Below, in pieces: positions 17,303 through 20,970 of a stretch of DNA of 26,695 nt. Positions within the stretch are counted from its first letter, which is position 1, and each line of letters begins with the position of its first letter. The notes under the pieces were generated by a model. The model ran no database searches and was not told the origin of the DNA. It was given only the letters and a program-made list of their open reading frames with translations. This stretch comes from a virus. A program made the translations under genes and the position numbers. The DNA is taken from positions 1 to 26,695 of IMG/VR virus record IMGVR_UViG_3300046530_000365; one strand, given 5' to 3'.

Positions 17303-17626
17303 TCAGTACGAAGTGACTATGCTCTGGGCAAGTTGGTGGTCAGACATCAGCGGTGGTGTGTAGGTCGTACGGTAGAAGCGCACAGCCTGCTCAAATTGGG
17401 CACCGCGTATGTCACCGTTTGAGCCAATAAATGCGAGCGCGTCAGCCTTTGCGGGCTTGAAGTTATTAGTGGCCAACATGGTGAGCCCGGTAGTTCCTGC
17501 AACGGTGTAGCTTGGAGCCATCAGTACAGACAGCATCGAGTTGTTATAGGAGTCATCGGACCCCTCAGAGGCATGAGCGTTGATCGATACCATGAGGGCT
17601 GCGGCTACAATCTTCCATGAGTCCAT
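17303..17626 (-). CDS. Secreted DUF2388-like protein
   Basis: A 107-residue protein with a signal peptide (MDSWKIVAAALMVSINAHA, likely cut after AHA) and a mature part matching the DUF2388 pattern common in Pseudomonas: GTTGLTMLATNNFKPAKADA, LAFIGSNGDIRGAQFEQAVR, and a C-terminal SDHQLAQSIV. It is probably periplasmic; the function is unknown. The ribosome site is weak (GGAAG nine bases before the ATG). It is flanked on both sides by leftward terminators, making it a single-gene unit. It is likely a lysogenic-conversion gene taken from the host genus. Confidence 0.7.
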   Translation of the reverse strand: MDSWKIVAAALMVSINAHASEGSDDSYNNSMLSVLMAPSYTVAGTTGLTMLATNNFKPAKADALAFIGSNGDIRGAQFEQAVRFYRTTYTPPLMSDHQLAQSIVTSY

Positions 17627-17684: not shown

Positions 17685-17713
17685 GAAACAACAAGCCCGC
17701 TCGGTGGCGGGCT
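17685..17713 (-). terminator. Leftward intrinsic terminator 3
   Basis: On the leftward strand, AGCCCGC-CACCGA-GCGGGCT is followed by TGTTGTTT. It is the same stem as terminator 1 with one loop change. It ends the GHKL/STAS cassette transcript. Confidence 0.7.
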
Positions 17714-17775: not shown

Positions 17776-18297
17776 TTAAGGCATATCAAGCTTATCAAGC
17801 TCTCGTCCGAGCTTATCCTTCAATGAGCCTGAGGTTGTTGAAATTGTACTGATCGTCGCAGATCTCGGTGCGGAGGCTTCGCGCCTATTTGACTGAAATT
17901 CTCCGCCCGTGACGGCCTGCTTGAATGACAGAAAATCAGAGCTTGCACGAGGCCAAAGAACAGCACTGTATCTGCTGAAACGTGATGATATGTCTTTGAT
18001 CTTTGTATTTATTACAACGCCAGAAGTGCCCGTTTCGCTTCCTGGCTTCATCCAATAATCGATTGCAAGCGCTGTCAGCTCCTCAATGTCTCTGTGGATT
18101 TGCTCGAGCCTTTGCCTTCGCTGGTCTTTCTCGCGATCAATTCTAGCTTTCGACTCAGCAGCAAGCCTCAGCCCCTCTGCTTTCGACTCAGCAGCAATCC
18201 GCAACTCGTCTGCCCTAGCGTTAGTTCTTTTCTGAGCGTATGCGGTCCAGATCGAAATTATCAAGGCGAACCAAGCAGGTATGTCTCCCAGATCCAT
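17776..18297 (-). CDS. Membrane-anchored coiled-coil protein (third gene of the GHKL/STAS cassette)
   Basis: A 173-residue protein. An N-terminal membrane helix (PAWFALIISIWTAYA) is followed by a coiled coil with an internal repeat (ELRIAAESKAEGLRLAAESK), then a helical region (IEELTALAIDYWMKPGSETG), and a Ser/Thr-rich tail (SATISTISTTSGSLKDKLGR). The function is unknown. GAGG five to six bases before the ATG at 18297 is the best start; upstream in-frame ATGs at 18312 and 18342 would overlap the STAS-like gene. Seven bases separate it from the STAS-like stop, so it belongs to that operon and may anchor the system at the membrane. Confidence 0.7.
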   Translation of the reverse strand: MDLGDIPAWFALIISIWTAYAQKRTNARADELRIAAESKAEGLRLAAESKARIDREKDQRRQRLEQIHRDIEELTALAIDYWMKPGSETGTSGVVINTKIKDISSRFSRYSAVLWPRASSDFLSFKQAVTGGEFQSNRREASAPRSATISTISTTSGSLKDKLGRELDKLDMP

Positions 18298-18304
18298 TCC
18301 GGCC

Positions 18305-18619
18305 TCAGGCATGTGCTGCATCAATGTATTGCCAAATCTCATCGATAACGTACGGGTCTTCCTTGTAGCGAAACTTCAATTTCTTGTGAAGCGTTTCTTT
18401 GGTGAATTTTTTCAAGCGCACCAAGCCACCAAACGCCTCCTCAAGAAAAGAGGATCCGTAACCCATGGAGCCGTCTAGATCCACCTCAACTACGTCGTAT
18501 TCACGCAACTTAGGCTCCAGAAGGTCGTCCCTAAACACCTCGCCAGAAAAAGCGCCATCAACGCGGTAACGCCCCGCTGGGTACTGACTAAACTCACTAG
18601 CGATTGCTATGGTTGTCAT
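18305..18619 (-). CDS. STAS-like DUF4325 protein
   Basis: A 104-residue protein with a DUF4325 (STAS-like) pattern: GRYRVDGAFSGEVFRDDLLE, then YDVVEVDLDGSMGYGSSFLE with EAFGGLVR, the part that in this family precedes the final helices. STAS domains typically partner GHKL kinases (as SpoIIAA/SpoIIAB do), and the upstream gene is a GHKL ATPase. GGAAG six bases before the ATG at 18619 favours this start over one two codons earlier. The gene starts inside the 3' end of the ATPase gene (23-base overlap), so the two are translationally linked. Confidence 0.82.
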   Translation of the reverse strand: MTTIAIASEFSQYPAGRYRVDGAFSGEVFRDDLLEPKLREYDVVEVDLDGSMGYGSSFLEEAFGGLVRLKKFTKETLHKKLKFRYKEDPYVIDEIWQYIDAAHA

Positions 18620-19694
18620 GTTCATCTTCCAAATCCTGCATTTCTTTAACCGGGATTGCCCATTGGATCACTGTCCCGAGTATAGATTCAGTGTACGCAC
18701 CGTCTTTATATGTGGGCGGAGCCGTAGAAAAATCAATACCGACAGCTCCCATGTTGCTATAGACCGACAGGCGGCCACCAAGGTCCTCGGCGGCCTTGAG
18801 GATATTTCGCCTCATCCCTTTTCCTCGGTGGTCCTGTTCCGTACGCGTCCGGCCGAGCTCAAGAGACCGCCTGATCATGTTCCTGTCTCGCTTACCTTCG
18901 GAAAGCATAGTGAGCTTTACTATGTCCTCGATCTGTTCGGCCCACTTCTCGGGCAATGTGACTGGAATGCCAAGGCCAAGGTCACAAAATGCTACATGCA
19001 GCCATCCATCTAAGACCTCAGCAAACACCCACCAACGTCGCTCGTCGGCGGATGCCGAGCCGCTTAACCTATCTCCGCGCGGCCTTAGGTAGGCGTGGTG
19101 CACGGCATTATCCATGGCCTCGCCCACTCCCGTTACAAGTTTTTTGTAGCCGGCAGGTAACTGGACTTGGATTATCTTCATAAGGGCATCAGCGCTTAGC
19201 TGATTTACACTCACATCTGACGCATATCGCCATTTCGCGACCGTAGTGTCTTCATCAGTCACCTGCAGCCGATGCCGCTTCTCCAAAATGTCAAATAGGC
19301 CAATCTGCTGAAAAACTTTCTCGACCGTTTCGTCTTTAGGATAGCCGCATTTTAGCCGGCACCTACCTCGCAGAGAGCGGGTTATCCTGTCGATCTCCGC
19401 CAGCATCAGCAACGTTCCGCAGGAATTAACCTTCTCTGTTTGGGCAAAGCTAATTGTGACACTGCCGCGCCTTGTACAGGCTTTCCTCAGGTTCCTCAGG
19501 AAAACTACCAGTTCTGCTTGGATATGTTTGTTATACAGACCAATCACTTTAGGCGCGATCAGCGGCTCTGGCCTTGTGGGCCGTCCCTTTGCTTTAGTTC
19601 GAGAGGAGAGAGGCTTGCCTCGAGACTTTGACGCGAGCCTGTTTCTGGCAATACGTCTTTGTCGTGAAAAATAGTCGTCCGGGTTGAGCTTCAA
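18597..19694 (-). CDS. GHKL-type ATPase with N-terminal STAS-like region
   Basis: A 365-residue protein with the Bergerat ATP-binding fold: N-box VGEAMDNAVHHAY (Glu192, Asp195, Asn196), G1 box FCDLGLGIP (238-243), G2 box HRGKGMRRN (289-297) and a closing GTVIQWAIP strand (340-348). Residues about 55-135 look like a STAS-type domain (RRGSVTISFAQTEKVNSCGT). The N-terminal 45 residues are strongly basic. The start is a TTG at 19694 with AAGGAG six bases ahead; no better ATG exists. It lies about 160 bases downstream of the small gene behind cI, so it may be read in the lysogen from the repressor promoter or a local one. It could be a kinase or an ATP-driven switch; the target is unknown. Confidence 0.85.
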   Translation of the reverse strand: MKLNPDDYFSRQRRIARNRLASKSRGKPLSSRTKAKGRPTRPEPLIAPKVIGLYNKHIQAELVVFLRNLRKACTRRGSVTISFAQTEKVNSCGTLLMLAEIDRITRSLRGRCRLKCGYPKDETVEKVFQQIGLFDILEKRHRLQVTDEDTTVAKWRYASDVSVNQLSADALMKIIQVQLPAGYKKLVTGVGEAMDNAVHHAYLRPRGDRLSGSASADERRWWVFAEVLDGWLHVAFCDLGLGIPVTLPEKWAEQIEDIVKLTMLSEGKRDRNMIRRSLELGRTRTEQDHRGKGMRRNILKAAEDLGGRLSVYSNMGAVGIDFSTAPPTYKDGAYTESILGTVIQWAIPVKEMQDLEDEHDNHSNR

Positions 19695-19856: not shown

Positions 19857-20084
19857 TCAGCCAGCCTTCCTACGCACAATCCTTCCCGCCTTCACCTCAT
19901 CCGCATAGCCCACCAACCTGTCCGCTTCTTCGTAAAGCGTACCCACAAGCCCCATCAGCGCTATGGCGTCGGCATCGCTGAGCTTTTCCGCAAGCTTTCC
20001 CAGGTCGACACAGGACTGCTCGAGGTTGAATGCTATCGCCTTGAGATCACGGCGCAGTTGCTGGTTGGGTTTGGTTAAGGCCAT
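19857..20084 (-). CDS. Small helical protein downstream of cI
   Basis: A 75-residue all-helical protein, MALTKPNQQLRRDLKAIAFN to GRIVRRKAG, of unknown function. The ATG at 20084 lies four bases after the repressor stop, with only a weak GGTG ahead, so it is probably translated by ribosomes leaving cI. Expression in the lysogen is therefore expected, as for lambda rex genes. No terminator is visible between it and the GHKL gene. Confidence 0.65.
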   Translation of the reverse strand: MALTKPNQQLRRDLKAIAFNLEQSCVDLGKLAEKLSDADAIALMGLVGTLYEEADRLVGYADEVKAGRIVRRKAG

Positions 20085-20088
20085 GACG

Positions 20089-20970
20089 TCACACCGGTTG
20101 TCCGTTCCACACGTAAAGCACCCGAGCCAGGATATGGGTGTCATCCACTCGAATATCCTCTGGATCGTGGTGCTTGTTGTCCGAGATCATCTTGAAGCGA
20201 TCCTTGCCTTTCTTCTGCAAGCGCTTCACGTACAGCATGTCATCGTGGGAGAACAGGTAGATACCGTCGCCGGTGAACTCCCGGATAGTGATGTCGACGA
20301 GCAGGGGATCGCGATCCTTGATCGTCGGAGCCATCGACTGGCCCCAGCCGGTGATCATCTTGAGGTGGAAGTGTTCTTTGAAGGTGAGGCCCAGGTCACG
20401 CAGGTGCTTTGGGCTGACTCGTATGTCCTGGAGCATTTCCGGGTATTCGTGCGGGATCTGCCCGCCGCCCATCGCTGCCCGAACGTCGTAGTGCGCAATC
20501 CACACCTCATCACCGACCTGTCCGGGACGAGAGAAGTCGACGGTAATGACGTTGCTCGTCTCGTCCGCCGCCGCGATGATTCGGTCACGAGCGGTGCTGG
20601 TTAATCCTTTGACCTTCGAAAGCATTCGCTTTATCTGCTCTGCCGCAGTTTGTGCTGACTGCGCGTCCGGCCGCTCGTCCGGAAAACTTCCGTCAACTGA
20701 CTCCATCGACTCGCCTGGCGATATGGAATCGAACCAACCTCTGGGCAGCTTTTCGATCGCCTCAATTCTCCGCGCGACATCGTCTCCCAAATTTTTCGCA
20801 GTCTTGTCCGACAAAATCTGACTCAGGTGCGCAGGGGCCATCCCCCAGCGCTCGGCGCACGCGCCTTTCCGCTGGGTTCCTATAAGGCTGATCAGTTTGT
20901 GCTTACGAATCGCATAAATATCCATGCGGGCAAGAATGCCAGCGTTTAGCTCAATGCTAAATGTGCTCAT
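20089..20970 (-). CDS. cI: CI-type lysogeny repressor with S24 peptidase-like domain
   Basis: A 293-residue repressor. The N-terminal HTH is about residues 24-58 (GTQRKGACAERWGMAPAHLS). The C-terminal S24/LexA-like domain has Ser212 in GWGQSMAPTIKDRD and Lys249 in YVKRLQ as the serine-lysine pair. The usual Ala-Gly or Cys-Gly cleavage site is not obvious; the YDVRAAMGGGQ stretch (161-171) is where it would be expected. The ATG at 20970 has AAGGAA nine bases ahead and lies within the operator cluster, allowing autoregulation. It is divergent from the Cro-like gene and its predicted targets are OL and OR. Confidence 0.93.
   Translation of the reverse strand: MSTFSIELNAGILARMDIYAIRKHKLISLIGTQRKGACAERWGMAPAHLSQILSDKTAKNLGDDVARRIEAIEKLPRGWFDSISPGESMESVDGSFPDERPDAQSAQTAAEQIKRMLSKVKGLTSTARDRIIAAADETSNVITVDFSRPGQVGDEVWIAHYDVRAAMGGGQIPHEYPEMLQDIRVSPKHLRDLGLTFKEHFHLKMITGWGQSMAPTIKDRDPLLVDITIREFTGDGIYLFSHDDMLYVKRLQKKGKDRFKMISDNKHHDPEDIRVDDTHILARVLYVWNGQPV

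Follow-up and report, generated by a model that had tools for sequence, protein, structure and literature searches.

A conserved kinase, DUF4325 and membrane-protein cassette downstream of a phage repressor gene is a likely sister of VapKSC

The closest described system to the locus reported here is VapKSC, an operon that encodes the STAS-GHKL kinase VapK, the STAS antitoxin VapS and the PIN toxin VapC (Chambers et al., EMBO J 2026; PMC13373217). It confers ∼2-log protection against one phage, and this protection is lost on mutating VapC, Ser48 of VapS or Phe54 of VapK (PMC13373217). The S48E phospho-mimic of VapS fails to neutralise VapC; for the activation of VapK by ssDNA, the authors state that a direct test was impossible (PMC13373217). 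CapKS, which is also built from a STAS-GHKL kinase and a STAS substrate, controls the transcription of an adjoining immune operon (PMC13373217).

The DNA analysed here (the window) is the whole 26,695-base stretch of one virus record, and it resembles a temperate Pseudomonas phage. Three leftward genes, which we call K, S and T, lie within 19694–17776 (−) and are followed by a terminator. Their open reading frames were confirmed at the coordinates below, listed together with the features on which the analysis depends.

18597–19694 (−): K, STAS-GHKL serine-kinase-like protein, 365 aa, TTG start; PHROG 3364, E 5e-38
19245–19565 (−): STAS-like segment of K, residues 44–150, from the strand-helix order in the AF2 model
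19089–19121 (−): N-box of K, E192-A-M-D-N196-xxx-H200-A-Y202, from an alignment of 102 sequences
18305–18625 (−): S, DUF4325 STAS-like protein, 106 aa; PF14213
18449–18454 (−): Ser58-Ser59 of S, candidate phospho-acceptor pair, from conservation
17776–18342 (−): T, predicted N-terminal TM helix and cytoplasmic helical domain; ORF of 188 aa, likely start ATG 18297
18223–18279 (−): predicted TM helix of T, about residues 22–40, from hydropathy and alignment
17694–17713 (−): intrinsic terminator of the cassette, 7-bp stem with 6 G-C pairs and a T-rich tail
20089–20970 (−): S24/CI-type repressor upstream of the cassette; Peptidase_S24 E 1.4e-18, PHROG 4
19857–20144 (−): small gene overlapping the 3′ end of cI; PHROG 6388

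K and S overlap by ∼29 nt. The first 10–15 residues of the T open reading frame are absent from its homologues, and a Shine-Dalgarno-like GAGG stands 5 nt ahead of the ATG at 18297; T therefore likely starts at this ATG, 7 nt past the S stop, so that S and T touch without overlapping. The preliminary description had three genes that overlap or nearly touch and end in their own terminator, and this picture is kept for the terminator and the K-S overlap, with S and T now placed side by side. Past the terminator, at 17303–17626, lies a DUF2388/TIGR02448 gene, a cargo gene that we did not count as part of the cassette.

The cassette begins 395 nt downstream of the S24/CI repressor gene on the same strand, with only the small gene in between; phage SC_8_H2H8_2017 has a gene similar to this small gene (PHROG 6388) at the same place. 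On the cassette strand, neither a terminator-like site nor a convincing promoter was found in the interval between cI and the cassette, which makes expression of the cassette in the lysogen plausible. In two related Pseudomonas phages, whose cI 3′ ends are 87–90% identical, cI is followed by other, uncharacterised genes (L322 3717–4238 and L323 3532–4284). Since other genes occupy this place in related phages, it looks like a cargo slot, in agreement with the first reading of the region.

To collect loci, an S profile was run on genomes and viral contigs and a K profile on viral contigs, and duplicates were removed. K lies directly upstream of S in 163 of 182 distinct S genes; some of the S genes without an adjacent K are explained by contig ends or by long overlapping start choices. 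Among 176 third genes, 165 belong to one family, which was built iteratively. When the profile of this T family was run over all 20,840 open reading frames of the fetched loci, 235 of the 238 matches were beside S; of the other three, one traces to a frame that was misread, and two belong to an additional cassette in prophages of one and the same type. The full K-S-T order was present in 101 clusters at 60% K identity, as counted in a partial survey. An independent sample of 274 gammaproteobacterial genomes, outside the fetched loci, contained DUF4325 in 40 genomes, K in 9 and T (E < 1e-10) in 6. All six strong T matches adjoin DUF4325, one of the six genomes being the sample centre, which was known beforehand; five weak T matches in this sample (E 1e-5 to 6e-4) lack an adjoining DUF4325 gene and probably come from unrelated proteins. 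The distances within K, S and T are also correlated (Mantel r 0.42–0.60 vs permutation maxima <0.13), a result that shared descent alone could give. Taken together, these observations indicate that K-S-T is a conserved unit, whose genes cluster far beyond chance. The linkage of the three families elsewhere, on which the preliminary description had staked its proposal, is borne out.

The unit is not always complete. S-T pairs without a recognisable K were found at loci L057, L084 and L032 (ORF lists with 6-kb flanks), and on a plasmid of Acinetobacter wuhouensis (L325 2766–5275) an IS3-family element stands ahead of a truncated K, with S and T intact. These cases suggest that S-T can persist without K.

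Across many phyla, K-S-T is carried on prophages, plasmids and chromosomes. The set was found in many groups of Proteobacteria, in bins of Clostridia, Cytophagales, Phycisphaerae and Sumerlaeia, in one Helicobacter prophage, and on plasmids of Vibrio, Acinetobacter and Novosphingobium. In Francisella phage KIRK, which is inducible, the same three genes (Fhv_0046-48) come after cI (PMC7924643), and in Marinobacter phage AS1 the set (AS1_41-39) adjoins the repressor region. The AS1, KIRK and PHROG 3364/5816 sets agree with the window in families and order and follow the repressor region; their annotations go no further than hypothetical, DUF4325 or TM protein. One Pseudomonas-type prophage contig (locus L097 1–3324, and L101) has two K-S-T cassettes in face-to-face orientation, one with a window-type S-T on the + strand and its K cut off by the contig start, the other a complete divergent K-S-T on the − strand. 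In bacterial genomes, most neighbours are single housekeeping genes and some are phage integrases. PADLOC matches in the neighbourhoods were few (MADS-like, type I specificity, DRT and MzaA), and these are raw occurrences without a baseline.

The preliminary description had proposed the cassette as a candidate for a previously undescribed prophage-borne defence or host-switching system. The cassette is indeed found in prophages, but plasmids carry it too, and on chromosomes it stands among neighbours that are unrelated from one locus to the next. As for novelty, K-S-T is described as a system nowhere in the full-text literature searched (open access, no preprints, few subscription papers); the related VapKSC, however, is published (PMC13373217). 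No defence system was recognised when the K, S and T proteins of the window were scanned with PADLOC, NCBIfam and Pfam.

With the HATPase family of Pfam, K alone gives a match with an E-value of 0.002, which is below the gathering score. An AF2 model of K was built from an 85-sequence alignment, and a single-sequence AF2 model (pLDDT 38) was discarded. In the retained model (pLDDT 86.5, pTM 0.83), residues 150–352 have SpoIIAB as the best structural match (1l0o_A; Z 12.1, rmsd 2.9, 136 residues), followed by RsbW (Z 10.1) and then CheA. Judged from this model, the GHKL kinase fold is clear despite the sub-threshold HATPase match. Glu192, Asn196 and His200 are present in 102 of 102 sequences, and Asp238 and Gly240 are likewise invariant. 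The N-box was scored in loci retrieved by S, and the serine motif of S in loci retrieved by K, so as to avoid selection on the tested motif; of the 124 loci retrieved by DUF4325, 119 have an intact N-box and the remaining five are fragments.

Residues 44–150 of K follow a STAS-like strand-helix order in the AF2 model; they have no conserved acceptor serine, and positions 91–93 are variable. This segment could be aligned with the VapK-like N-terminal segment by hhalign (E 4e-5, with a probability of only 43%), and a direct profile comparison of it with S gave no match. The term STAS-like therefore refers to the topology of the model and to the weak match with the VapK-like N-terminus. The first 40 residues of K are modelled as one helix and a loop, with no HTH. 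By analogy with VapKSC, K would be a serine kinase that acts on S.

S belongs to DUF4325 (PF14213; E 3.2e-16, 59.2 bits vs a cut-off of 23), the domain spanning residues 27–91, and a Pfam search with this 106-aa protein gave no HTH match. Together with the SpoIIAB-like model of K, this assignment upholds the earlier reading of the pair as a GHKL ATPase with a fused STAS-like segment and a separate STAS protein. Ser59 is present in 102 of 102 sequences and Ser58 in 97 of 102. The motif SFLxExF was found in 63 of the 64 loci retrieved by K alone, the sole exception being cut at a contig end. Ser58 aligns with Ser48 of VapS and would be the phosphorylated residue by that comparison; a simple alignment with SpoIIAA points to Ser59. 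The N-terminal part of S also carries the motif PAGRYxxDG, of which the VapS-like sequences show no evident counterpart. In a PDB profile search, S gave a weak match to Escherichia VapS (E 0.09), the match that pointed to VapKSC and CapK/CapS as relatives.

Of 101 T representatives, 85 contain a single hydrophobic segment at the N-terminus. In 81 of the 85 scored homologues, positive residues are commoner after the TM segment than before it; this charge bias predicts an N-out/C-in topology, which would place the helical domain in the cytoplasm. The preliminary description had named T a membrane coiled-coil protein and set it outside the SpoIIAB/SpoIIAA scheme. Its place outside that scheme and its membrane-anchored, helical nature agree with our results, and one N-terminal TM helix with a cytoplasmic helical domain is a better description than coiled coil. 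In Pfam searches, T and 81 homologues had no PIN match; T has no recognisable toxin domain. Sequence matches of T in the PDB were generic coiled-coil matches and were discarded; Pfam matches of T homologues (DUF2554, PspB, FlaC and others) were single and weak and were set aside. A minority of third genes, outside the T family, likewise encode a helical tail preceded by one or two N-terminal TM helices. At loci L312, L313, L087 and L022, the gene after K-S is of another kind, encoding two N-terminal TM helices ahead of a helical tail, and these products are possible alternative membrane effectors. If the parallel with VapKSC holds, T would be the effector of the cassette and may be toxic.

For the comparison with VapKSC, four VapK-like and four VapS-like sequences were used. 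The VapK set was picked by operon structure, not by published accession, and one of the four pairs (Streptococcus phage Javan172) has no adjacent VapC. VapKSC-like operons were found at one genome locus, on one Deinococcus plasmid and on one phage contig, all in the order K-S-effector; a scan of the viral contigs with a VapK-like protein gave no match. The K family matches the VapK-like profile over both segments (hhalign probability 99, E 3.6e-18, 271 columns), and S matches the VapS-like profile over 68 columns (E 4e-7). Like S, the VapS-like proteins fall into PF14213 (DUF4325) above the Pfam cut-off. The ssDNA-stacking position is Trp in four of four VapK-like proteins, and the published residues are Phe54 in VapK and Trp68 in CapK. 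In the window, the residue aligned with it is Lys88, and an aromatic residue occupies this position in 9 of 102 homologues, a count that depends on the alignment. Since lysine replaces the stacking aromatic in K, the trigger may differ from that of VapK.

Three related arrangements were observed along the way. In Streptococcus phage Javan172 (L288), a VapK-like and a DUF4325 gene are flanked by the repressor region on one side and the integrase on the other, and a VapC-like third gene is missing. At L321 2–3142, a VapKSC-like operon, its vapK incomplete at the contig end, is directly followed by a large gene resembling a DNA-methyltransferase-type protein. Single genes of ∼340–360 aa that seemingly combine HTH, GHKL and DUF4325 (L255 685–1701 and others) are common in Gammaproteobacteria; they look like relatives of the kinase-STAS pair made as a single protein.

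On balance, we consider it probable that K-S-T, as a sister of VapKSC, is a kinase/STAS/membrane-effector switch: S would restrain T for as long as K leaves S unphosphorylated. In the resting lysogen, S would bind the cytoplasmic domain of T and keep T inactive. K would become active on a trigger, probably another infecting phage or a related stress, and would then phosphorylate the Ser58/Ser59 site of S. Phosphorylated S would free T, which would then act at the inner membrane, either stopping growth or blocking the invader. The binding and release of T by S and the anti-phage outcome are modelled on VapKSC; the placement of the genes, the intact catalytic and acceptor residues and the survival of S-T without K fit such a phospho-switch. 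In the searched literature, we found no experimental work on the window cassette or on any K-S-T homologue.

S and T might instead form a maintenance element of the toxin-antitoxin type, in which S neutralises T, K only tunes the pair, and the advantage lies in keeping the prophage, plasmid or island, not in defence. The persistence of S-T pairs without K would suit such an element, as would the plasmid copies that adjoin other toxin-antitoxin genes and the scattered single insertions in chromosomes. However, the catalytic residues of K are intact in nearly all loci, and a plain addiction pair needs no kinase; moreover, the nearest analogue, VapKSC, protects against a phage. We regard this explanation as unlikely.

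Also improbable, in our judgement, is superinfection exclusion, with T as a constitutive inner-membrane blocker of phage DNA or receptors that is tuned by K-S, and with no arrest of the cell. The position after cI recurs in many prophages: on viral contigs, 19 of the 46 upstream neighbours of the cassette match a repressor PHROG, and 15 match Peptidase_S24. That position carries other genes in related phages, and T is a small membrane protein. Against it, many copies are chromosomal or plasmid-borne, and a phosphorylation switch would be an odd requirement for a constitutive blocker.

We give little credence to a partner-switching regulator of host genes, of the sigma/anti-sigma type, with T as a membrane sensor or an anchor for K. 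In its favour, the kinase domain of K is nearest to SpoIIAB and RsbW, and the STAS partner of K has a conserved serine pair. But the unit includes no sigma or anti-sigma gene, and its neighbours are varied housekeeping genes; neither the window cassette nor the recurrent neighbours contained a sigma-factor gene. S also lacks the wHTH of CapS, and T stands beside S, in the effector position. Finally, that K, S and T are chance neighbours without joint function is refuted by their conserved linkage, residue conservation and correlated distances.

Beyond the switch itself, we tentatively propose that K-S-T is a distinct and widespread anti-phage system whose kinase would sense a signal other than ssDNA and free a membrane effector, and that, with VapKSC, it may make up a class of immune modules that share a phospho-switch and whose effectors are interchangeable. 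If this is true, the kinase-STAS switch of VapKSC is a general chassis for different effectors, and its membrane-effector form is common on prophages. A family labelled only DUF4325 or hypothetical would thereby gain a residue-level hypothesis, centred on Asn196 of K, Ser58/Ser59 of S and the TM helix of T. It also raises the question of what signal is sensed by a kinase without the known ssDNA contact.

Among known systems, lambda RexAB resembles the cassette only in its position after cI, and the cassette proteins had no match to RexA or RexB in Pfam or PHROG searches. SpoIIAB/SpoIIAA and RsbW/RsbV have in common with K and S the kinase fold, the Glu and Asn of the N-box and a serine that opens the second STAS helix; they differ in that K has a fused STAS segment, the partner is of the DUF4325 type, and a membrane protein is the third gene. 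CapK/CapS is, like K-S, a STAS-GHKL kinase with a STAS substrate, whereas the N-terminal HTH of CapK and the wHTH of CapS are not seen in K and S. VapKSC is the nearest: the gene order of kinase, DUF4325 STAS protein with a conserved Ser/Thr, and effector is common to both, and the VapK-like proteins have, as K does, a STAS-GHKL architecture with no HTH. Different from VapKSC, the third gene of K-S-T encodes a membrane-anchored helical protein in place of a PIN nuclease, and the aromatic residue with which VapK stacks on ssDNA is not conserved in K. Because of these two differences, the best reading is that K-S-T is not a member of VapKSC but its sister with a membrane effector.
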